From Desulfovibrionales bacterium (lineage in GTDB: Bacteria; Desulfobacterota; QYQD01), in assembly GCA_028715605.1 (NCBI GenBank), contig JAQURM010000001.1:62001-126000 (forward strand): a DNA stretch of 64,000 nucleotides, written 5' to 3'. Each line of letters opens with the position of its first letter. The stretch's first letter is position 1. Under the pieces are notes generated by a model. That model saw only the letters and a program-made list of their open reading frames with translations. It searched no databases and was not told where the DNA came from. A program made the position numbers and the translations under genes. This document shows positions 1,095-13,956 of this stretch, piece by piece.

Positions 1095-1856
1095 TCAGGG
1101 CACTATATGCGGAAGGTTCACCAAACCATTGGCGAGCAAGTACTCGGCGACGCGTAATTCCCATTCATGATCAATGTCCCATGAGTAAATAGGGTCAATC
1201 AGCACCGCGCCTTTGACGCGTCCAAAACGGCCAACGCTGAGCATGGTCTCGGTACGGGCAGCAAACAGATTGCCGAACTTCAGCGCACTCGGTTTGCTCT
1301 GACGGCTACGCGCCTGATTACGTTCTTCTTCGAAAAGAAACTCCCAGCGGCCGTCCGCCTTCATGAAGGCCAGGTTGTAAGGATGGTGGCGGTGGTCCAG
1401 CTCTGCCATAGTAGTCACCGAATCCAAGTCGGGCTCGGCACGCAGGAGTTCCACCGCCGCGTCAATGTGAGCAGCAGTGACAAACGGGGAGGTGGGTTGG
1501 ATCAGCACAACCATATCAATATTCAGACCGTGCTCGCCCTGCAGACGACGCACCAGATCAGCCACTGCCGCATCTGCAGGCACTTGATCACCAGCCAGTT
1601 CCTCCGGACGGCGGAAGGGCACCTGTGCGCCATAGCGTTTGGCTACCGCCGCGATCTCGTCGTCCTCCGTCGAAACATACACAGCATCGATACTCCGTGC
1701 CTGCTGCGCTGCCGCAATGGAATAGGCCAGCAGGGGACGCCCCGCCAGTAACGCAATGTTTTTGCGCGGGAAGCGCTTCGACCCCCCGCGTGCCGGCACA
1801 ACAACAATTGCCCGCCCCTCACCGGAAACAACGGGCTGTGAATCCGTACTTGTCAT
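1095..1856 (-). CDS. neuA: CMP-N-acylneuraminate cytidylyltransferase family protein
   Basis: Activates a sialic-acid-like (nonulosonic) sugar with CTP to give the CMP-sugar used by glycosyltransferases; cytoplasmic. The family signature PARGGSKRFPRKN sits near residues 20-35 (nucleotide-binding P-loop-like turn), followed by VSTEDDEIA and LIQPTSPF, all typical of NeuA/PseF/KdsB-type transferases. Length (253 residues) fits the family. The start is taken as ATG at 1856, which overlaps the upstream stop as TAATG; a GTG at 1868 is an alternative. Last enzyme of the nonulosonate gene set. The precise sugar (neuraminate, legionaminate, KDN) cannot be read from sequence. Confidence 0.88.
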   Translation of the reverse strand: MTSTDSQPVVSGEGRAIVVVPARGGSKRFPRKNIALLAGRPLLAYSIAAAQQARSIDAVYVSTEDDEIAAVAKRYGAQVPFRRPEELAGDQVPADAAVADLVRRLQGEHGLNIDMVVLIQPTSPFVTAAHIDAAVELLRAEPDLDSVTTMAELDHRHHPYNLAFMKADGRWEFLFEEERNQARSRQSKPSALKFGNLFAARTETMLSVGRFGRVKGAVLIDPIYSWDIDHEWELRVAEYLLANGLVNLPHIVP

Positions 1857-2773
1857 TATGCCAGACACAACTTTCCAGTCTTCAAATAGTGCTCGTAATC
1901 GCGGTAGACAGCCTCACTTAGACGCTTCTCTTCGTCAGTCTGACCCCGGAAGGGCTTGGCCACATATTCCTTACAGATGCCGCGCAACGACAACAGATAT
2001 TTGACCTCCGCAGCTGACTCCCCGTTGTGCCAGTAAGCTCCTTTAGGTAGGCGCTTGAGAAAGCTCATGATCTCGTCGTTCTTGGCGCGCGCCCTACTCA
2101 GGCTATCGGACTGGATTGATACATAGAGCTCTTTAAACAGTTCAGGAAAACAAGCCGCGGTGCTGCTGGAACTCGCTTCCAACCCATGGCATAGGAACGA
2201 AAACATCTGGCAATCGGCCGAGCCAAATACCTGGAAATCCGGTGAGTTGAGCGCCATGAACCCCTGGTTTACCCGCAGATCGAACCCCGCCAGCTTGACG
2301 CCGTGAATGTTCGGGTGGCTTTTCAGGGACTTGACCACCTCAATGGGAATACCACTGGTACGGGTGGTATTCTGATACAGCCAGATAGGAAGCGGCGATC
2401 TATCGGCAATCCCGCGGTAGAGCAATTCCACTGCCTCACCGCTTATCTTTTTGTCATACGGGATGACGTGAATACCGTCAATACGGCAGTCAGCGACAGC
2501 GCCGATAAATTCCAGTGAGTCGCGCACGCTAAAACTGCCGCCACCTACAAGCAGTGGTACGCGTCCGTCGTTGACCTCTGCCATCTTGCGCGCAACCGCA
2601 ACACGGGTGGCGAAAGAGAGGTTCATGCCTTCGCCGGCCGAACCGAGCGCGAACAGCGCAAGGCCATGACCAGCGAGGAAATCTATCAGACGCTCAATGC
2701 CTTCCAGGTCAGCGTCTTCATTTGCTGTGAGTGGCGTCGGTACGACCACCATCACCCCCTTAATTCTTCTCAT
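1856..2773 (-). CDS. DapA/NanA-family aldolase
   Basis: A (beta/alpha)8 class-I aldolase of the dihydrodipicolinate synthase / N-acetylneuraminate lyase family. Visible hallmarks are LGSAGEG near residue 45 (substrate carboxylate loop, GTTGE in DapA), the tyrosine of LYQNTT and the Schiff-base lysine in GVKLAG. The length of 305 residues is normal. ATG at 2773 has GGAG 7 bases upstream. Because it is coupled to neuA (TAATG) and lies in a polysaccharide locus, a role in making or cleaving a keto-deoxy sugar acid is more likely than lysine synthesis; that is inference from context. Confidence 0.8.
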   Translation of the reverse strand: MRRIKGVMVVVPTPLTANEDADLEGIERLIDFLAGHGLALFALGSAGEGMNLSFATRVAVARKMAEVNDGRVPLLVGGGSFSVRDSLEFIGAVADCRIDGIHVIPYDKKISGEAVELLYRGIADRSPLPIWLYQNTTRTSGIPIEVVKSLKSHPNIHGVKLAGFDLRVNQGFMALNSPDFQVFGSADCQMFSFLCHGLEASSSSTAACFPELFKELYVSIQSDSLSRARAKNDEIMSFLKRLPKGAYWHNGESAAEVKYLLSLRGICKEYVAKPFRGQTDEEKRLSEAVYRDYEHYLKTGKLCLA

Positions 2774-3869: not shown

Positions 3870-4667
3870 TCAGAGTTTCCCTAGATATTTACTATTTTTA
3901 AATTTCAAAGTTAACGTTGTATTTCCGAAGATCTTAAAGCTTTCAGCGAAAGCGTCAGAAGGTGTTATTTCGTCAAAATGCAGGATATCCTCTTTCGAGC
4001 ATGGATCCACGAAGCCCAAATGTTTTAATGCATTATAACGTACTTTCTCTGTTCCAAATACTTTCTGGAGTACATAACAGGTACTTACTCTTTTATCAAT
4101 TATAGCAGATACAGGCGTTTTTGAATTTTTTACGATGTACAAGTAATCATAGTCAAAAGCAATTGTTCCATCTGAAGGCGCTATGTAGCTTGGTCCATCG
4201 ACATAAACAAAATCGTATTTTTTGTTAGGGATATTTTTGTATCGTACACCTCGAAAAAGTGAATAATAATCTTCAATGACAGGACTAAAAATAATATCAA
4301 CATAAGGCATCATAAATTTCGGCAATAGTATTTTTGCCATGTTATAATATTCTTCAACTGATTCCATCGAAGTAATACTTCCCCTAAACCCCTCTTTTTC
4401 ATTTTCGATTAGAGCATAGGCTATTACAATGGTTGAAATTCCGGTACCGCACTCCAAAATTTCTTTTGGTTTATTTTTTCGTACAAAATTATAAAGCGTC
4501 CAATAATCACCGAAACCACAGCCTGTCGATCCTGATGCTAAAATATAACTATTCAATATCTCCCATAACTCATTATTTTTTTTAAAATTTGCTAAATATC
4601 TTTTTTCGATCTCTCGCCTTGTTATATTTAGCGTATATGATTTTATTCTATTTGCGACTGTTATCAT
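3870..4667 (-). CDS. Class I methyltransferase-like protein
   Basis: A 265-residue protein with a Rossmann-type SAM-binding signature, ILECGTGISTIV (residues about 90-105), and an acidic strand end, SITSMESVEEYY, suited to the ribose hydroxyls. The YDFVYVDGPSY segment is the motif IV equivalent seen in O-methyltransferases related to class-I catechol types. It is much more AT-rich than the GC-richer gene before it, pointing to a different origin. A surface-sugar or aglycone methyltransferase is the best guess; substrate unknown. Confidence 0.6.
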   Translation of the reverse strand: MITVANRIKSYTLNITRREIEKRYLANFKKNNELWEILNSYILASGSTGCGFGDYWTLYNFVRKNKPKEILECGTGISTIVIAYALIENEKEGFRGSITSMESVEEYYNMAKILLPKFMMPYVDIIFSPVIEDYYSLFRGVRYKNIPNKKYDFVYVDGPSYIAPSDGTIAFDYDYLYIVKNSKTPVSAIIDKRVSTCYVLQKVFGTEKVRYNALKHLGFVDPCSKEDILHFDEITPSDAFAESFKIFGNTTLTLKFKNSKYLGKL

Positions 4668-4839
4668 TCAGTTACTCTCAAAAATCATTTTTTTCTCTTC
4701 AGAGAATTTTAACTATCTATGATTTGTCTTTATCGCTTGAATAATGCTGCCGAATCATTTTCATCGTTTTATACTTATGCCAGCTTTGTCCGGTTATACC
4801 GTAACAATGAACGAAAGTTGTTATCTTATCAATAGGCTG

Positions 4840-5490
4840 TCAATTCCAAGGGTGCTGCATAACAAACGAAGACAACTCTCGCAAATCTTCCAGCATGTAT
4901 TCAGGACTAATGTCAAAACGGGAAATATCTTTGCCGACTCCTGCAAAATAACAGCCTGCCCGCAAGGCAGCCCGCCGATCGACCTCACTGTCGCCCACAT
5001 AAAGGATATTTTCTGCCGAACATTGCCAGGTTCTCATGATTTCAGCCACGTGTTGCTCCTTACTTGCTGGACAGCCATATATCTTATTAAATACAGGCCC
5101 CCATCCCCGCTTAAGTATGATATTTTTTAAGGTTAATTCCGGGGTCGCGGAACTGATCATCAATTTGATACCCATGGCATATAGTTCAGCTAGCGCTTGC
5201 GTTGCTCCTTTAATCTCATGAGCTTGTATAATTTTTTCCTCACACAACTTGGTATAGAGGGCAGATAGCTCCAGGGAATCAACAACGACTCCTTGATTTG
5301 TTGAATTTAACCGTTCAGAAACGTATGTAAATATTGCATTACGGTCTCCAAACTCAGGATCCGACAGTACTTTATCTAGAAGTGGCTTAGCGCCAGGCAA
5401 GTGATCGGTAACTTCAAAAAAAGTCTGCCGCTTAATCTCATTTGATTCAACTAAAGTACCATCAAAATCAAACACCACAAGCTTTATCAT
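4840..5490 (-). CDS. HAD-superfamily phosphatase
   Basis: A phosphatase of the haloacid dehalogenase type. Motif I is VFDFDGTLVE at the N-terminus (catalytic Asp pair), motif II is ISSATPEL and motif IV is YVGDSEVDRRAA. The start is set at ATG 5490, 10 bases after the stop of the NeuB-like gene; an upstream in-frame start would overlap that gene and delay motif I. A cap domain fills the space between motifs I and II. In nonulosonate pathways such an enzyme removes the phosphate from a sugar-9-phosphate made by the synthase, which fits this position, but the substrate is inferred. Confidence 0.82.
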   Translation of the reverse strand: MIKLVVFDFDGTLVESNEIKRQTFFEVTDHLPGAKPLLDKVLSDPEFGDRNAIFTYVSERLNSTNQGVVVDSLELSALYTKLCEEKIIQAHEIKGATQALAELYAMGIKLMISSATPELTLKNIILKRGWGPVFNKIYGCPASKEQHVAEIMRTWQCSAENILYVGDSEVDRRAALRAGCYFAGVGKDISRFDISPEYMLEDLRELSSFVMQHPWN

Positions 5491-5500
5491 AAAATCACTA

Positions 5501-7027
5501 TCAATCAGCCCCAAACTGGAATCGGCCCCAGTGTTCCACAGCGGTTTTCCTTTCACTTCTATCAAGCGCGTTTATCCGCCTGTCATTATACACGGAATCA
5601 TTATTGTAATGTGTGGTGGAAACCTCTTCCACAATGCAGCCGGTATCGGACCAAAAATGATGCCAAACCCCAGGCTGCACCAGGGCAATGTTACCAGGAT
5701 GCAATGTTCTCCTGTGTCCATCTATCTCACATTCAAAAACTCCGCTAAGAACCTGAAAGGATTCCTCCTTGCGTTTGTGGTAATGCGCCGGATGTCTTTG
5801 CCCGGGCAAAACAACAATTAGTTTTTTACAATACTCACGGTTTATGCAATCAATAATTACGGCGCCAACTTCTCTGAAATTTTTTGCTCCATAATGATGG
5901 GAAAACTCAATATGGAACCCACTATCAAGCGCTATTGACGCCTCGTTCAACATGGCTTTTACTTCATGAATCGCCTTTTTAAGCACCGAAGTATCTGTAG
6001 CGGGCGGGATGGATACGCTGTTTTTCCAGAGCGGATCATCTTTTTTTAGCGATTCTTTAGCAACTATTCCCTCTTGCCAAACCCCGTTTGGAAGTTGCCC
6101 CTCGGAAAATGGCATTGCAAAATAAACATCATCACGAGTTAATACTGTGCCCTTTTTAACATTCCTCTTTAAGAATACGCCCCTTTGCAAATCATCTAAT
6201 GATTTTTTTTCCAAGTCCGTAACAGGACGTTTATTTTTTATTCCACAGAGAGTTACGGCATGTTTATAGGCCTCCAGCCATTTATCGAGTTGCTCGGGCG
6301 TAGATGAATAGGAATTAAGTTTGATTTGGTCGGTCTCAACTCCCACATGTCTCTCAAATATCCTGGCGCCTTTTGCAACCGCGATTTGAATAGCAACAGT
6401 TTCATTAGGATCTTCATGTGTCGACCAACCGATTGTATGATCCCGATAACGGCTGCGCATAACGTCAATATAGTTCAAGTTGAACAGATTGTTAGGGATT
6501 GGGTAAACCGAAACACAGTGCATCAATGCATGTTGTACGCCTCTATGTTCAAAAAAGCTGGTGATGTTGTCTATATCGCTAATTTCCAATCCCCCGGTTG
6601 AAACAAGCACCGGCATAAAAGAATCAGCAATTGCCTCAAGCAAAGGCCAGTCTTTTGCAGAGCAACTCGCAACCTTAATAATATCAAAGCCCATATCGGT
6701 TATTACCGGCACCGACTCATCATCAAACGGGGTACACATCGTCAGCATGCCTTCATCCTTGACAGCATCGAATAATGTTTGCCACTCCTTGTCACTGAGA
6801 CGAGTTGCGAGAAAACGTGGTATGTGTTTATTATCGCTTGATTTTTTATGCGCAGGATGAATGAATGTGTCTAATTGGCGGAACTGGAATTTTAAGGCGG
6901 CACGAACCTTATGCTTTCTCACAATTTTTCCACATTCTCTGATCACCTTAAGTCCATGATCCATGCTTCCTTGGTGGTTATTGGCCAGATCCAAAACAAA
7001 CAAATCATTAAAATCAAACTCTGTCAT
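5501..7027 (-). CDS. neuB: NeuB-like nonulosonate synthase with SAF and C-terminal cupin domains
   Basis: Residues 1-260 form the NeuB TIM barrel that condenses a hexose-type sugar with phosphoenolpyruvate: LANNHQGS, KFQFRQ, TPFDDESV, IKVASCSAKD, LVSTGG and HCVSVYPIP are all visible. Residues about 285-345 are an SAF (antifreeze-like) domain (RGVFLKRNVKKG). The last 140 residues are a cupin with HPAHYHKRKEES and GVWHHFW metal-binding histidines. ATG at 7027 is preceded by AAAGGGA; an earlier in-frame start lacks this. At about 508 residues it is roughly 150 longer than ordinary NeuB because of the cupin. The cupin could isomerise or epimerise the sugar, but that is inference. Confidence 0.85.
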   Translation of the reverse strand: MTEFDFNDLFVLDLANNHQGSMDHGLKVIRECGKIVRKHKVRAALKFQFRQLDTFIHPAHKKSSDNKHIPRFLATRLSDKEWQTLFDAVKDEGMLTMCTPFDDESVPVITDMGFDIIKVASCSAKDWPLLEAIADSFMPVLVSTGGLEISDIDNITSFFEHRGVQHALMHCVSVYPIPNNLFNLNYIDVMRSRYRDHTIGWSTHEDPNETVAIQIAVAKGARIFERHVGVETDQIKLNSYSSTPEQLDKWLEAYKHAVTLCGIKNKRPVTDLEKKSLDDLQRGVFLKRNVKKGTVLTRDDVYFAMPFSEGQLPNGVWQEGIVAKESLKKDDPLWKNSVSIPPATDTSVLKKAIHEVKAMLNEASIALDSGFHIEFSHHYGAKNFREVGAVIIDCINREYCKKLIVVLPGQRHPAHYHKRKEESFQVLSGVFECEIDGHRRTLHPGNIALVQPGVWHHFWSDTGCIVEEVSTTHYNNDSVYNDRRINALDRSERKTAVEHWGRFQFGAD

Positions 7028-7131
7028 AATCGTCCCTTTACTATTTAAGATTGAAAGAAAATTAGCGATCTTAAAAACCAAGCTAGCCGAACAAGCCGCC
7101 TGTTTGATAGACGAAAAAACACACCGATAAA

Positions 7132-8235
7132 TTATTTCATGAGTGAAAGAGCATCAATTTTATAGCCGGCTGAATAATCAATCTTGACGGAACATTTTTT
7201 CTGCGCAGAAAGATGTGCGGCAGCGATAACCAACATCGTATCAAGCCCATGTGCTAATGAAATGGGAGAATCCTTACGGCTTCCAGTACCTAAGATTGAT
7301 TCAATATGCCTTAATTCCTGAATAAAATCATCCGGCCTTGTCTTTGTAATTTCTGATGTAGTCACTTCTCCTGTATTTAAACCAGATTCCACTGTATCTA
7401 GTCCAGGTTTGTTGCCACAATACCATTCAACATATCCGTTTTCACACTGAGCCCGCGCCCATTTCCTTGTCGGCCGGGTGACTACGTCCTGAACAACCCG
7501 ACCGACAAATCCGTCTTCGGTGACAAGCTGGAGCAAACAGATACTGTCGTAATCAATGACACCATCTCTGACATATTTCATCGTAGATGAAACCTCAACA
7601 ACTCTTCCTTTTCCTGCCTGACGGGCCAAATTCTGCCAAAGGTTAATGGCGTGAGAATGTTCGCCGCACGCGCCACCGCCACGCTCCCAATACCCAAGAT
7701 ATGTATCAGCCGGCCCATTAAGCCATGGATGAGCCTTGAAAATCCCCCCCCAATGTTCACGAAATTCAACATCCAGTGTTTGTATTTCCCCTACTTCACT
7801 GGACATTAAATAATCCGCCATCCGAGTTGCGGATTTACCAACAGCATGATCGTAGCCGACAAAAACTGTGCAACCAGCCTCATTGGCCTCTTCAAATAGC
7901 TGTTGTGCTCCCTTTAGATCTGGAGTACAGAACGGTTTTTCAACCAGTAATGTTTTTGCGCCTTGTTTAATGGAAGAACGAGCAACCGGCATATGACTAT
8001 CAGGGGGTGTTCCAATAACAATCAGATCGTAATTCCCGTCCGATATCTCGTTGCAATCATAAAGACCTATGGAGTCATCCCACTTACCATATCGTGAGGG
8101 ATATATTTCATTCTTAGCTCTTTCTAGAGCATCCTTATTAATATCACAAAGATCAACACTCCACCCCATCTGCCGTGAGGCATAACTGAGATGGTTTCCG
8201 ATGGACCCGGCCCCGTAAATTTTAACTTTTTTCAT
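7132..8235 (-). CDS. Gfo/Idh/MocA-family oxidoreductase
   Basis: NAD(P)-dependent sugar dehydrogenase family. The N-terminal Rossmann fold has IYGAGSIGNHLS, followed by IGTPPDSH and the family lysine motif VEKPF near residue 125. A C-terminal alpha/beta domain follows (EHWGG, GGGACGEHSHAI), where the histidine pair is expected to act on the substrate. The ATG at 8235 is preceded by GAGGGAG; a GTG one codon earlier is an alternative. Lying just upstream of the NeuB-like gene, it probably oxidises or reduces a precursor or side group of the nonulosonate. The exact substrate is not known. Confidence 0.8.
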   Translation of the reverse strand: MKKVKIYGAGSIGNHLSYASRQMGWSVDLCDINKDALERAKNEIYPSRYGKWDDSIGLYDCNEISDGNYDLIVIGTPPDSHMPVARSSIKQGAKTLLVEKPFCTPDLKGAQQLFEEANEAGCTVFVGYDHAVGKSATRMADYLMSSEVGEIQTLDVEFREHWGGIFKAHPWLNGPADTYLGYWERGGGACGEHSHAINLWQNLARQAGKGRVVEVSSTMKYVRDGVIDYDSICLLQLVTEDGFVGRVVQDVVTRPTRKWARAQCENGYVEWYCGNKPGLDTVESGLNTGEVTTSEITKTRPDDFIQELRHIESILGTGSRKDSPISLAHGLDTMLVIAAAHLSAQKKCSVKIDYSAGYKIDALSLMK

Positions 8236-8296
8236 CACTCCCTCATGTTAAACCATCAAATCATGTATTATCATCATTAATAACTGGAACAAAAAA

Positions 8297-10138
8297 TCAC
8301 ACCTTGCCTATCATATTGGTCCCGACTATTTTCTCGTAATCACCCTTGCGAACTATACGTCCATTATCAATTTCATATATAATATCACAATGCTTTAGCG
8401 TAGTAAGCCGATGTGCAATGACGATTAAGGTTATCGAACCTTTCAAGAGCGATATTTCATCAACAACTTCTTTCTCTGTTTTATCATCAAGGGCGCTGGT
8501 TGATTCATCCATTACTAAAATTTTTCTATTATGATAAAATGCGCGCGCAATAGCAATTCGCTGCCGCTGTCCACCGGATAGCCTCATGCCCCGCTCTCCA
8601 ACAACACTATGAATACCATTCGGCAAGTTATTGACCAGATCTTCTAATCTGGATTGCTTTAATGCGTTAATGACTCGCTTGTCGTCAATCTCACAACCTG
8701 GGACACCAAGGGCGATGTTGTTGCGGAGTGTATCATCAACAATGAACACATCTTGAGGCAAGTATGCAAATTCCGACATCCAGTTACATGAATTATCATC
8801 AACCGGCGTATGATCAAATAAAATCTCTCCACCCTGGGGCTTTAATAAACCCAATATAATATCAACCAACGTCGTCTTACCAGACCCAGACATACCTATT
8901 ATGCCAACAGAGGTCCCCCTTCCTATTTCCAAGTTTATATTAGAAAGCGTGGGCGACAAATTTCCAGGATAGGTAAATTCAACATTCCGGAGTCTCAGTA
9001 CATTGAAATTATTGCAATTACTGTGAGCGATTTTTGTATTTTTTCTGCAAGCCAAATCGTATTTTTCAAAATCCTGCCTCACCCTGTTGCTATCTATCTT
9101 TTTTAAATCGTTATATAAAATATCCACCGTGTTTTTCCCATAACGTATTTTTGTTGCACAGCTCAATATTTGATTTGCAGACGGCATTAACCTCATTGCA
9201 GCAATAGCAAATACAGCTATTGTTGCAATAATAGAATCAACCGTTCTACCGGTCAAAACTGAGACTAAAACCAACAAAACAACGAACAGAATCAATACAA
9301 ATTCAACGACATATTGGGAAGAAGTAGTAATAACCTGAGACTTAACTCGCGCATCAGCCAGCCCCTTTGCGTTATCATTCACCATTTTATTGAAATAATG
9401 CGCAGTCCCATAAATTCGATTTTCGCGAAAGCCATTCATTCCTTCTTGTATGGCTTGAACCATTCGTGTAGAAAATTTATTTGAGATTATGCCATAAAGC
9501 TTATTTTTGTTTTTAAAAAACTTATCATAACAAACAATAAGAGCAGCCAATAAAACTATTAAGATACTCAGAGACTGCCAATCATTGATGGCCAAAAAAA
9601 CAATTATTGCTAAGCAGATAACGCCGTCACTTATTATCCGCAGTAGAGACTGTGTAATACTAACTGCGAACTGACCAACAATTGTCTGGATATTATACAC
9701 ATATTCAGAGCTATTCCGACGCAGATAATCTACATAATTCATTTCCTGATAAGCGCTCATAAGATATGAACGCAGCTTCACAGTCTGATCGAAACATAAC
9801 CGAAATATTTTTTTGTTGATCAAAATTGCCGTTACAGTTTTGGTAAAAAAAGCTAATATGATAAAAAAGCAACCGACAAAAATTGCTACCTTAAGCTCAT
9901 CATTCCCCATAAATTTAATGCGGCCTAAGTAGGGTGCAAAAAATTTCCCCGATAACCTATCATGGTTAGTCAAAATAGTAACAAATGTTGCTACTAAACT
10001 GATCCCAAGCAAATCAAGGATTGATGAAAATAGGAATAGCGGCACCAGCCAAAGAATTTTATTCCTATCTTTGCCAAGAATATAATTAACTTTATGAAAA
10101 TACTTTTTAATGTTTAAAGGAATCACTGTCTTATTCAA
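8297..10138 (-). CDS. ABC transporter, fused permease and ATPase (flippase/exporter type)
   Basis: A 613-residue half-transporter. The N-terminal 330 residues hold about six hydrophobic segments (for example LVPLFLFSSILDLLGISL). The ATPase domain has Walker A GMSGSGKTT, Q-loop YLPQDVFIVDD, signature LSGGQRQR, Walker B ILVMDESTSALD and the switch histidine IAHRLTT. This is the MsbA/PglK/lipid-linked-oligosaccharide flippase arrangement and would act as a homodimer in the inner membrane. Placed between sugar-synthesis genes, it likely flips or exports the glycan made by this locus. The gene is AT-rich. Confidence 0.88.
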   Translation of the reverse strand: MNKTVIPLNIKKYFHKVNYILGKDRNKILWLVPLFLFSSILDLLGISLVATFVTILTNHDRLSGKFFAPYLGRIKFMGNDELKVAIFVGCFFIILAFFTKTVTAILINKKIFRLCFDQTVKLRSYLMSAYQEMNYVDYLRRNSSEYVYNIQTIVGQFAVSITQSLLRIISDGVICLAIIVFLAINDWQSLSILIVLLAALIVCYDKFFKNKNKLYGIISNKFSTRMVQAIQEGMNGFRENRIYGTAHYFNKMVNDNAKGLADARVKSQVITTSSQYVVEFVLILFVVLLVLVSVLTGRTVDSIIATIAVFAIAAMRLMPSANQILSCATKIRYGKNTVDILYNDLKKIDSNRVRQDFEKYDLACRKNTKIAHSNCNNFNVLRLRNVEFTYPGNLSPTLSNINLEIGRGTSVGIIGMSGSGKTTLVDIILGLLKPQGGEILFDHTPVDDNSCNWMSEFAYLPQDVFIVDDTLRNNIALGVPGCEIDDKRVINALKQSRLEDLVNNLPNGIHSVVGERGMRLSGGQRQRIAIARAFYHNRKILVMDESTSALDDKTEKEVVDEISLLKGSITLIVIAHRLTTLKHCDIIYEIDNGRIVRKGDYEKIVGTNMIGKV

Positions 10139-10161
10139 TTAAGTGATTAGAACTGTGTCGA

Positions 10162-11535
10162 TTAAGCACTCATGGATATTTGTATAAATTTACTTCCCCT
10201 CTTTTTACACTTCAGCCGCCCCTTTGCATCCGCACCAAACGAAGAAAGAACTCCCCGTATTTCATCAACGGTAAAATTATCAAACTTATGAGAAGTGTAA
10301 TCACGCCAAACGCTGTTCCTCCGTATAACCATTGCTGCGACGTCTCGCAAAAAAAATAAGAGCCTGCCTGTATATTCATGATAGCATCTGTTATTATTCA
10401 TACTGCTTTTGTATTTCTCCGACCTTCGGTTGGCTATAGATGATATCTCGTCAACCATCAATTTTGCAGACACAATATCACCAATATTCAATACGTAATC
10501 CGAATAATCTTTTTTAGGTGTCACGCAATGTTTTTTGGAGGAAGAATCAACCAAACAATCATGTACAGCCTTAACCAGTTCCTCAGGCGAAGAACATACC
10601 TTAGAACATTCAAAAGGAATTTCCTTCTCACTTAATGGATCCGCTTCAGGGCGCAAGGAGAACCTCGGAACATTAGCGGCATATGCTTCAACTGCAGTTG
10701 CACAATAATGATGAACAAGCGCTTCCGCTGCCAGTATCCACGGATGCACAGAGAAAATGTTACTTTCGACGTGAACGTTGTTAAATTCCCTGGCGAGTTT
10801 GACATAAACCTCTTTGTTCTCAGAGGGATGAGGTCTGACAACAATATCTGTGCCCGGACACTTTTTTGCGAGTAGAGGTATTGCCTCCAAAAATGAATGC
10901 AGGGTTTTTGTCTTGATCTTTTGATATCTTTTGAAATTATCGATAGATTCTTGGCTCTTAAGAACCTTTTTGTCAATTAAAGACTGGACATAATCAATGC
11001 CGGGCACAAAGTGGTTACAAGAGGGGAAAGAAGTACAGATTAATATGTACTTATTGTATTTTTTCCTTATAATAGCAATTTCTTTTTTGTAAACATTCGA
11101 AAATTCCGGTTTTAATAAATCAAATCTAGGGTGTCCTGTTATCTTAATTTTATGAGACAACTCCTTTTTATTAGATGAAATTATGTTTCGATTATCCGCT
11201 CCCCAGCTGAACAATAGATCTACGTATTCCATAGCTTTTGAAGAAATCCTCATATCTAAATACATATCATCAGTATAAGTAATGAGTCCCTCTTCTTCGC
11301 ATACGACAACAATATTTCCTAATTCAAACAAGGTGCGATAAAAATTCTTATAATTCTCAGGAACACCTAATCCGAAGTATATGCCTGCAGGCATTCGCAA
11401 AACAAGTCTATTTAGATCGTTTTTCCTGCCCAAAATTACATTAAAGCCCTTTTCAGCCGCATATTTTGCAAGCAACACTTTTGAGTATAATTCTCTATTC
11501 TTAACTTCAACCGGAAGATATAAATTCATAAACAT
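10162..11535 (-). CDS. Surface carbohydrate biosynthesis protein
   Basis: The opening YLPVEVKNRELYSKVLLAKY is the recognisable start of the surface carbohydrate biosynthesis protein family, whose fold resembles CDP-glycerol glycerophosphotransferases and GT-B glycosyltransferases. GHPRFDLL and VVRPHPSEN (near residue 245) are the usual nucleotide-sugar-binding turns; HHYCATAVEAYAANVP matches the C-terminal donor-site helix of GT-B enzymes. It is AT-rich. The ATG at 11535 and one two codons inside are both possible starts. The biochemical reaction of the family is not established, so transferase activity is inference. Confidence 0.72.
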   Translation of the reverse strand: MFMNLYLPVEVKNRELYSKVLLAKYAAEKGFNVILGRKNDLNRLVLRMPAGIYFGLGVPENYKNFYRTLFELGNIVVVCEEEGLITYTDDMYLDMRISSKAMEYVDLLFSWGADNRNIISSNKKELSHKIKITGHPRFDLLKPEFSNVYKKEIAIIRKKYNKYILICTSFPSCNHFVPGIDYVQSLIDKKVLKSQESIDNFKRYQKIKTKTLHSFLEAIPLLAKKCPGTDIVVRPHPSENKEVYVKLAREFNNVHVESNIFSVHPWILAAEALVHHYCATAVEAYAANVPRFSLRPEADPLSEKEIPFECSKVCSSPEELVKAVHDCLVDSSSKKHCVTPKKDYSDYVLNIGDIVSAKLMVDEISSIANRRSEKYKSSMNNNRCYHEYTGRLLFFLRDVAAMVIRRNSVWRDYTSHKFDNFTVDEIRGVLSSFGADAKGRLKCKKRGSKFIQISMSA

Positions 11536-11659
11536 CTCAACGCGCTTTATTGCGCAACTGCCATTTTTTCGTTATTAGGGTTGTCTCCCCCAACCAGCCC
11601 TGAATCCATCATAAAATCAGGCAGACCCTCCCTCTCCGCTAATTAGTCTTTTGCGAAAA

Positions 11660-12844
11660 CTACCATTTAACCCCCTTAAATATTACTTCCTTACGAATGT
11701 TACTTTTGTATTGCTCAACAACCGCCATCATATTTTCCAATAGTTCATGCGTGAGATAATGCGGCTTAACGCCCAGGTCCAAAAGCCCTTGGTAGCGCGG
11801 ATTATAATAATGCCCTTCCGCTTCCTTGCGAGGATTTTCAAGATGATTTATCGTTACATCATAACCAAGCTTTTTAGCAACGTTCTGCGTCATCTCCGCC
11901 AACTGATTAACGCTGAAGGTTTCCATGATTTGGTTGAATATGCGCAATTCTCCCTGGGCAGGCGGATTTTTCATAGCGAGATGAACGCACTGTAATGTAT
12001 CGTTGATATTCAAATATCCTCTTGTCTGACCGCCTTTTCCATATACGGTCAAAGGATAACCAATAATAGCCTGGACAATAAATCTGTTTACCACGGTTCC
12101 AAAGATTTCGTCGTAATTGAAAATTGTCTTCAGCCGGTCATCTATTTTAGATTCCTCCGTCTCAATTCCGTAAACCGGACCTTGCATAAGGTCAGTGACC
12201 CGCAGATTCCACATTCGAACGCCAAACCAGAGGAGATCAGTATCCATAATCTTTGATGTATGATAAAGAGAACTGGCCTGGCGCGGATAAAGAAATCTAT
12301 CGCTTCTGCCGTTGTGCTCAATATTCAGCCATCCTTCCTCAATATCAATATTTGGGGTGCCATATTCACCCATGGTGCCAAGCTTTACAATATGTGTATT
12401 TCTCGAAAAGTCACGGACCGCAAACATCAGATTGTTTGTGACCAGCAGATTATTGGTAATGGTCAGATTGGCATAATGATAATTGAGAAGGGAATAGGGG
12501 GCAGACGGTTGTTCGGCATAATGCACTACGGTTTCAGGCATGCCTGTAAATTTTCTGTTAACAGCCCATGCGTAATCAATATTACCGGTAAAAAGAGAAC
12601 GCATAAGAATTGGATCCGTCAGGTCGCCAATTACAACCTTGATTTCCTTTGCTGTGTGTTCGTGCCAGATTCTAGCCCGTTCAACCAAAGAAGGAACAGG
12701 GTAGAGCATTCCCACATCAAGCTCGAGACAGCTATTTCGCCGAAAATAATTATCTACCACCGTTACATCATAGCCCCGGTGAGAAAAATACATGGCGGTC
12801 GGCCAGCCCAGATAACCGTCACCCCCGAGAATTAATATGCGCAT
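11660..12844 (-). CDS. UDP-sulfoquinovose synthase-like NAD-dependent epimerase
   Basis: A long-chain SDR closely resembling SQD1/SqdB, which converts UDP-glucose plus sulfite to UDP-sulfoquinovose. The NAD motif is ILGGDGYLGWPTAM. The SQD1 landmarks KLGTMGEYGTPNIDIEEG and YHTSK (catalytic Thr, Tyr, Lys), RVTDLMQGPVYG and QTRGYLNINDT are all present. The start is ATG at 12844, overlapping the upstream stop as TGATG; longer frames lack support. About 394 residues, normal for the family. In this locus it may supply a sulfonated sugar to a surface glycan rather than to a sulfolipid, which is inference. A related UDP-sugar epimerase with another substrate is the alternative. Confidence 0.8.
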   Translation of the reverse strand: MRILILGGDGYLGWPTAMYFSHRGYDVTVVDNYFRRNSCLELDVGMLYPVPSLVERARIWHEHTAKEIKVVIGDLTDPILMRSLFTGNIDYAWAVNRKFTGMPETVVHYAEQPSAPYSLLNYHYANLTITNNLLVTNNLMFAVRDFSRNTHIVKLGTMGEYGTPNIDIEEGWLNIEHNGRSDRFLYPRQASSLYHTSKIMDTDLLWFGVRMWNLRVTDLMQGPVYGIETEESKIDDRLKTIFNYDEIFGTVVNRFIVQAIIGYPLTVYGKGGQTRGYLNINDTLQCVHLAMKNPPAQGELRIFNQIMETFSVNQLAEMTQNVAKKLGYDVTINHLENPRKEAEGHYYNPRYQGLLDLGVKPHYLTHELLENMMAVVEQYKSNIRKEVIFKGVKW

Positions 12845-13956
12845 CAGGCCAGTTCCTCCCTTTCCCCTGGCCAATAGCATCGATCAGGGAGATCTGTCCG
12901 CTTGTTCTTCATCGACAATAGATCATTAGTTATTAAGAAGTTTCGCAACTCATCCGGGCTTAAGGGCGTTTCGTTTGCAGAGATGTAAGGATTTCTGACT
13001 TCGGTGGATACAATAACTGGGTAGCTATAGTTAATATTCCGATAGATGCCACGAAATGCAGGCAAGACGGCAAAGTAGAGAGGAAGCTCAATAGCCCGGC
13101 GGGTTTCTTCCAGGCTGAGGAGTTCCTCATACATTTTCTCCCCTGGTTTTGCTCCGATGTTGAGTATTTCAACACTAGCTGGTTCATGACCATATACGGG
13201 AGCAAGCTCCTGGATCATAACCTCAGCCAGATCCTTAATACGAATGACAGGCATTTTAGTGATAAAAACCTCCCCGCCCCGGGCTAAGCTGGCTGAATCG
13301 ATAACTAAACGCACGGCCTCTCGGATGCTCATGATAAAACGGGTCATTTCAGGATCAGTAAGGGTAACTGGCCCTCCCTTCCTAATCTGTTCATGGAAAA
13401 TAGGAATTACCGAACCGCGGGAACCAAGGACGTTTCCAAAACGGGTGGAGGTAAACAAGGGGCCTTTATTGCGAGAATTGCTATTGGCCGCAGTCATTAG
13501 TTTTTCGCCCATAAGCTTTGAAGTCCCCATTACATTAGTCGGGTTTACTGCTTTATCAGAACTGGTGAAGATAACCCTTTCCACATGGTTTTCACAGGCG
13601 GCATAGATAATGTTTTGGACACCAACGATATTGGTCTGTACGGCCTCAAAAGGGGATCTTTCGCACAAAATAACATGTTTGAAGGCAGCTGTGTGGAAAA
13701 CAATATCAACGCCGTGCATTTTTCGGCATAATTTGTCCCGATCTCGTACATCTGCCAAGAAAAAACTGGCACGACTGTCGGATATAAACCGCTGCTCTAA
13801 AAAGAACAATCCACTTTCGTTGTTGTCCAGTGCTATGACTTCCGCAGGCTGGTAGTTATCCTCAAGGAGCTGACAAACCAGCTCGGAGCCTACGGTGCCG
13901 CAAGCACCGGTAACTAATATGCGTTTGTTGTTTAAGAATATATTCCGTTTATCCAT
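12844..13956 (-). CDS. CapD/PseB-type UDP-N-acetyl-sugar 4,6-dehydratase
   Basis: An extended SDR of the polysaccharide-biosynthesis (CapD) family. The NAD-binding turn is VTGACGTVGSEL. The active site is FTSSDKAVNPTNVMGTSK, with the SDK form in place of the usual SYK triad that marks FlaA1/PseB/CapD dehydratases. RFGNVLGSRGSVIPIF and the LTDPEMTRF segment are family landmarks. It lacks the membrane segments of the long WbpM type. It would form a UDP-4-keto-6-deoxy sugar, the first step toward many deoxy and nonulosonic sugars. It is coupled to the SQD1-like gene by a one-base stop/start overlap. Confidence 0.87.
   Translation of the reverse strand: MDKRNIFLNNKRILVTGACGTVGSELVCQLLEDNYQPAEVIALDNNESGLFFLEQRFISDSRASFFLADVRDRDKLCRKMHGVDIVFHTAAFKHVILCERSPFEAVQTNIVGVQNIIYAACENHVERVIFTSSDKAVNPTNVMGTSKLMGEKLMTAANSNSRNKGPLFTSTRFGNVLGSRGSVIPIFHEQIRKGGPVTLTDPEMTRFIMSIREAVRLVIDSASLARGGEVFITKMPVIRIKDLAEVMIQELAPVYGHEPASVEILNIGAKPGEKMYEELLSLEETRRAIELPLYFAVLPAFRGIYRNINYSYPVIVSTEVRNPYISANETPLSPDELRNFLITNDLLSMKNKRTDLPDRCYWPGEREELA

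Follow-up and report, generated by a model that had tools for sequence, protein, structure and literature searches.

What would a NeuB-type synthase do with a cupin domain joined to its C-terminus? The question is raised by a gene in the window, i.e., the 64,000-nucleotide stretch of DNA that was analysed (Desulfovibrionales bacterium, assembly GCA_028715605.1, contig JAQURM010000001.1, positions 62,001 to 126,000 of the forward strand), in which a first-pass annotation had read such a fusion and had tentatively placed it in an uncharacterised nonulosonate route. Based on sequence comparison and structure models, we propose, with a probability of about 0.55, that the fusion would be a bifunctional enzyme which combines a ketose-aldose isomerase with a 3-deoxy-ulosonate synthase. 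The features concerned are collected in Table 1.

Table 1. Coordinates of the fusion gene, its two parts and its neighbours in the window.
Feature	Positions	Strand	Basis
NeuB-cupin fusion gene, 508 aa	5501..7027	minus	ORF and translation; Pfam; 31 full-length fusions aligned
NeuB-type TIM-barrel synthase with C-terminal antifreeze-like part, about residues 1-344	5996..7027	minus	3g8r alignment; predicted structure
Cupin domain, predicted D-lyxose isomerase type, residues 352-508	5504..5974	minus	Model pLDDT 91.4; Z 18.7 and profile E 5.7e-15 to 2y0o
HAD phosphatase, recurring partner, downstream of fusion	4840..5490	minus	Pfam HAD_2; start assigned to the Met before IKLVVFDFDGT
Gfo/Idh oxidoreductase, recurring partner, upstream of fusion	7132..8238	minus	Pfam GFO_IDH_MocA; setting-A recurrence
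CMP-sugar (acylneuraminate/KDO-type) cytidylyltransferase	1095..1868	minus	Pfam CTP_transf_3; closest PDB entry 9ftb NeuA
DapA/N-acetylneuraminate-lyase family aldolase	1856..2773	minus	Pfam DHDPS
Surface carbohydrate biosynthesis protein, possible glycosyltransferase	10162..11535	minus	TIGR04396 345.6 bits, cut-off 125

The joining of a NeuB synthase and a cupin in one gene, as first claimed without a strand, is real, and the gene lies on the minus strand. Pfam NeuB matched residues 44-262 of the protein (131.6 bits, cut-off 22.1) and Cupin_2 matched residues 404-461 (47.7 bits, cut-off 27.2), and D-lyxose isomerase came third with a weaker score; the motif claimed for the cupin, HPAHYHKRKEES, was found at residues 412-423. 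The complete barrel and SAF domain of the first-pass annotation were borne out in part: Pfam SAF gave no match at E 0.001, yet the synthase does have its C-terminal part, as 3g8r, the best relative of known structure for the NeuB portion, aligned over residues 8-333 (285.5 bits). The whole fusion was modelled from the 31 aligned fusions with a mean pLDDT of 90.6 and a pTM of 0.72. The Foldseek search with this model placed 3g8r first, followed by Neisseria NeuB, Campylobacter PseI and other NeuB-family structures and then by the D-lyxose isomerases, and none of the 50 matches listed covered both halves. Because the same two-domain protein is encoded by 31 aligned genes, of which the others are 39-58% identical to the window protein, chance and assembly error are excluded.

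A search for the same fusion and its gene neighbours, as had been proposed with the annotation, was carried out in three overlapping whole-genome draws, which comprised 395 genomes of the window's phylum, 385 genomes of the class of an uncultured Euryhalocaulis sp. (the genome holding locus L006) and 398 genomes of the phylum of the latter. After removal of duplicates, 31 full-length fusions were obtained, all of which retain both halves, and two recurring gene settings, A and T, could be recognized. In addition, one fusion ended at a contig edge (L048), and five close barrel relatives were unfused (L049, L067, L068, L069 and L093), with no separate cupin gene in the stretches examined beside them. 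As these five near relatives have neither the domain nor, in those stretches, a separate copy of it, some pathways do without the cupin. One further cupin match alone was obtained, at L044:17169-17858, where part of a second NeuB-cupin gene is preserved, probably as a decayed copy. Within the window's own genus the fusion was found in the window's genome only (one of the five genomes of that genus in the phylum draw), and the plasmids, phages and viral contigs searched gave either ordinary NeuB relatives that lack the cupin and nowhere reach 80% query coverage, or no match. A known enzyme of defined specificity, which had been considered as another explanation, was not found either: the NCBIfam hits all stayed below their cut-offs, and no description of a NeuB-cupin fusion was found in the literature searched.

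The cupin half was modelled in isolation (residues 352-508) from 31 sequences, with a pLDDT of 91.4, and the top ten Foldseek matches all belong to the D-lyxose isomerase type of sugar isomerases. The VIA-align comparison with the Bacillus subtilis D-lyxose isomerase 2y0o gave a Z of 18.7 and an rmsd of 1.8 over 138 residues (model range 1-143), and the Z values of the other structures were 18.2-18.1 for 7nzo, 7nzp and 7nzq, 16.4 for 3kmh, at most 14.7 for L-ribose isomerases and at most 13.7 for the rest. The N-terminal helix of D-lyxose isomerases is present in the fold, the sequence profile of the cupin matched 2y0o at E 5.7e-15, and Pfam Lyx_isomer was matched by all 31 fusions at E 0.001, while the equivalog cut-off of NF051472 (D-lyxose/D-mannose isomerase) was missed (33.2 against 350 bits). 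The structure prediction that had been proposed for the cupin thus yielded a D-lyxose isomerase fold. According to excerpts from the study of the Thermofilum enzyme TsLI, its metal ligands are H75, H77, E88 and H143, the residues corresponding to K86, E156 and D163 are required for activity, and H75 is the proposed ring-opening residue (PMC8378251). The counterparts of H77, E88 and H143, i.e., H417, E422 and H456, are invariant in the 31 fusions; K420 (K86 of TsLI) is kept in 30 of 31 and E468 (E156) in every one, and D163 has no clear counterpart, aligning with a variable position near D477. Position 415, which corresponds to H75, is His in 19 fusions including that of the window and Gln in the other 12, and all 12 Gln-415 sequences fall inside a tree group of 15 rows that holds most of the ThDP-linked loci. 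Glutamine at this position could indicate that the substrate in the ThDP-linked group is short and open-chain. Loss of the metal and pocket residues in homologues, a warning attached to the first-pass annotation, was looked for in the 31 fusions and was not seen. As judged from the model and the alignment, the cupin belongs to the D-lyxose/D-mannose isomerase type, and its predicted metal and catalytic residues are largely retained.

In the NeuB half, K46, K118, H204, E225 and H227 are invariant in the 31 fusions and in all 21 comparison synthases, which are 20 control NeuB loci and the genome's own second NeuB. We take H204 and H227 to be the NeuB metal histidines of this protein and K46 and K118 to be its PEP-binding lysines, and these residues are also kept in the five unfused relatives. 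The residue Arg314 of Neisseria NeuB presumably holds the N-acetyl (N-acyl) group; it is the residue mutated in PDB entries 4ipi and 4ipj, as stated in the entry titles. The corresponding position is Met in the window protein, Met, Ile or Phe in all 31 fusions, hydrophobic in all five unfused relatives and Arg in 16 of the 21 comparison synthases. Since none of the 31 fusions has Arg there, an N-acyl sugar is an improbable substrate, and the barrel residues make a neutral sugar the likely one. Three further residues, R50, H57 and R71, do not vary among the fusions but do so in the comparison set.

For the gene neighbourhoods, profiles of the neighbours were built and all loci were then scanned with thresholds. 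Because settings A and T are defined by their own partners, the partner counts are descriptive and carry no test. Setting A, with 12 loci including the window, has a separate HAD protein beside the fusion in 11 (L061 is the locus without it), a Gfo/Idh enzyme in 9, a CMP-sugar synthetase in 8, the surface-carbohydrate protein in 5 and a ThDP enzyme in none. At a threshold of at least 400 bits, Gfo/Idh was found in 9 of 12 setting-A loci and in 0 of 12 loci of the ThDP setting; the enzyme has no informative close PDB relative. Among 20 ordinary NeuB loci used for comparison, the A-type HAD was found in none, Gfo/Idh in one (weak, 90 bits) and the ThDP enzyme in two (about 375 bits). Seven fusions lie outside both settings at these thresholds: L064 and L065 with a CMP-sugar synthetase, L047 with RfbG and RfbH, and L042 and L084-L086 without any partner. 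The copies in L085 and L086 have no profiled glycan partners nearby, and the next genes of L085 resemble, by eye, a methyltransferase and transporters.

Around the fusion, Pfam recognized all the neighbours that the annotation had named, i.e., the DapA-like aldolase, the Gfo/Idh enzyme, the HAD phosphatase and the CMP-sugar synthetase. The DapA-like aldolase lies outside the recurring set, being found in the window only among the 31 fusion loci scanned. Positions 4001-12000 of the window have a GC content of 38-43%, against about 45-54% over most of the remaining window, a pattern frequent in exchanged glycan clusters. A UDP-sulfoquinovose-synthase-like protein (11660-12844; 427.4 bits, cut-off 575) is encoded next to a PseB-like dehydratase (12844-13956; 277.1 bits, cut-off 407.75). 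To the left of the window on the same contig (G000:C1), a D-2-hydroxyacid dehydrogenase is fused to a CMP-sugar cytidylyltransferase in a single protein of 568 aa (L004:831-2534), and a conventional NeuC and NeuB pair lies about 7 kb from the NeuB-cupin fusion (L004:14351-16530), which makes a second ulosonic acid a probable product of this cluster.

Phosphatase-type partners other than the separate HAD protein of setting A were also found beside the fusion. In L064 a CMP-sugar synthetase with a HAD-like tail (7041-8285) overlaps the end of the NeuB-cupin gene, five ThDP-linked loci encode an SDR with a HAD-like C-terminal tail (L006, at 5022-6455, and L087, L088, L089 and L090), an NT5C-like gene is present in L043 and L045, the L045 copy having no Pfam match of its own, and L046 has a KdsC-type phosphatase (117.1 bits, cut-off 106.95). 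The SDR tails were not recognized by Pfam, save for a weak match below the cut-off in L087. Homology of the NT5C-like and the SDR-tail HAD-like proteins was rejected by profile comparison, and they are tied together only by HAD-type motifs read by eye. The company of several unrelated HAD-type forms suggests that the ulosonate product is phosphorylated; L061 and some setting-T loci show no HAD-type protein.

From these observations we infer a two-step model, including its reactions, the phosphorylation and the order of the steps. The C-terminal cupin, as a metal-dependent aldose-ketose isomerase, would convert a ketose to an aldose or aldose phosphate, and the N-terminal NeuB-type barrel would condense this aldose with PEP to a 3-deoxy-2-ulosonic acid, probably in phosphorylated form. 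In the window, the downstream HAD protein would then strip the phosphate from the ulosonic acid, the CMP-sugar synthetase would activate the acid and a glycosyltransferase would link the activated acid to a surface glycan. The Gfo/Idh enzyme may alter a hydroxyl or a keto function at some step of the route. The product of the window is likely a CMP-activated neutral ulosonic acid. A CMP-ulosonate route is the likely part of the nonulosonate route first proposed, and its product would have 8 or 9 carbons. The simplest concrete case for the window, offered as a guess, is fructose-6-P to mannose-6-P to KDN-9-P (KDN), on which a literature search gave no useful yield. If true, the making of an aldose and its lengthening with PEP would be coupled in one protein, a compact route to neutral ulosonic acids which predicts sugars detectable by mass spectrometry. 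Several points count against the two-step model, namely Gln at position 415 in 12 of 31 fusions, the missing clear counterpart of TsLI D163, the absence of a HAD protein from L061 and of all partners from L084-L086, the five near relatives of the barrel that go without a cupin, and the closest isomerases, which are described for unphosphorylated sugars whereas the HAD partner here suggests a phosphate.

Other readings of the cupin were weighed against the two-step model. The cupin might be non-catalytic, a regulator of the synthase that binds either a nucleotide sugar or the sugar product; non-enzymatic members exist among the cupins, as mentioned in excerpts from PMC8378251. The five related synthases without a cupin, which are presumably functional, would agree with such a role, but the retention of three metal ligands and of the catalytic Lys and Glu in 30-31 of the 31 sequences, together with the entire isomerase domain including its N-terminal helix, makes it quite improbable. 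The suggestion of an isomerase or epimerase in the first-pass annotation is supported on its isomerase side by the fold and the kept metal site. Gfo/Idh enzymes make keto-sugars, and their gene adjoins the fusion in setting A; as an epimerase, the cupin could act on a keto-sugar together with the Gfo/Idh protein, ahead of the PEP condensation, and give an unusual stereoisomer. This appears unlikely to us, as the fusions of the ThDP setting carry the same cupin with such a Gfo/Idh enzyme in 0 of 12 loci, and the closest folds are isomerases.

The fusion could also be an ordinary synthase of the sialic-acid type that makes an amino nonulosonate (legionaminic or pseudaminic acid) and carries a decorative cupin. 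The matches to the N-acetylneuraminate and pseudaminate synthase families (TIGR03569, 127.3 bits; TIGR03586, 113.7 bits) and the PseB-like gene in the window speak for it, but these scores are far under the cut-offs of 399.65 and 340.25 bits, respectively, the Arg of the 314 position is missing from every fusion and the genome has its own conventional NeuB and NeuC pair just outside the window. We regard an amino-nonulosonate synthase as very improbable, and the isomerase-synthase model is kept as the preferred reading.

Setting T consists of 12 fusion loci, some of them cut short, which were picked by a ThDP match of at least 600 bits; their scores were 808-991 bits for a profile that T members helped to build. 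The other partners were RfbF in 5, RfbG in 6, RfbH in 8, SDR in 8, radical SAM in 7 and C-methyltransferase in 7 of these loci, with no setting-A partners. In a tree of the barrel, made without use of the partners, 11 of the 12 T loci fall in the 15-row group (support 100/98), the A loci fall in two other groups and the twelfth T locus, L066, is found elsewhere; no order among the groups is implied. Of the five unfused relatives, three likewise neighbour a ThDP enzyme, and the remaining two adjoin Rfb genes. RfbH and RfbF, which belong to CDP-3,6-dideoxyhexose synthesis, are well recognized in L043 (680.8 bits, cut-off 423, and 459.9 bits, cut-off 300.25, respectively), and the best PDB match of the L043 ThDP enzyme is 8rph at 5.2e-123, the next being at 1e-83. 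This entry is JanthE, according to an excerpt of PMC12188165. In a review, YerE is described as putting a pyruvate-derived unit on CDP-3,6-dideoxy-4-keto-glucose, ErwE and MMAR_2332 as favouring longer hydroxylated keto acids, and most YerE-like enzymes as having no known sugar structure (PMC12247030).

Hydroxylated long alpha-keto acids are the product class of NeuB-type enzymes, and in setting T the alpha-keto-acid product of the fusion could serve as acyl donor in the synthesis of a long-branched sugar. We tentatively suggest, as a possibility somewhat short of even, that one fused family feeds 3-deoxy-2-ulosonic acids to two fates. These would be CMP activation, as in the setting of the window, and decarboxylation by a YerE-like ThDP enzyme, which would transfer the polyol chain to C4 of a CDP-4-keto-3,6-dideoxyhexose, followed by reduction of the new ketone by the SDR. 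The name of caryophyllose, as given in an excerpt of PMC5706390, implies that carbon 2 of the branch, one place away from the branch point, bears no substituent. This C2' deoxy carbon is where the PEP-derived CH2 would fall, which fits the donor idea and does not prove it. If true, the origin of the long hydroxylated alpha-keto-acid donors in branched-sugar synthesis would be explained, and setting T offers a testable source of such donors for YerE-like enzymes.

As compared to known systems, the fusion shares each of its halves with described proteins. The NeuB-family protein 3g8r of Chromobacterium violaceum, a 'putative spore coat polysaccharide biosynthesis protein E', has the same barrel and C-terminal part (TM 0.96 of target, 43% identity), but it has no cupin, and no tested function is named in the title of its entry. 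Neisseria NeuB (1xuu) and Campylobacter PseI (8h2c) share the fold of the PEP-dependent synthase and its metal histidines, whereas the fusion differs from both in the hydrophobic Arg314 position, the invariant R50, H57 and R71 and the extra cupin. The D-lyxose/D-mannose isomerases (2y0o; Thermofilum 7nzo-7nzq; Escherichia coli 3kmh) have the fold, the metal ligands and most catalytic residues in common with the cupin of the fusion, but they stand alone, whereas this cupin sits behind a PEP-dependent synthase and has Gln at the H75 position in 12 of 31 sequences. The YerE-like ThDP enzymes (JanthE 8rph, ErwE and MMAR_2332) are absent from the window and resemble the partner enzyme in 12 of the 31 fusion loci, and it is for these enzymes that we infer the NeuB product to be the donor.
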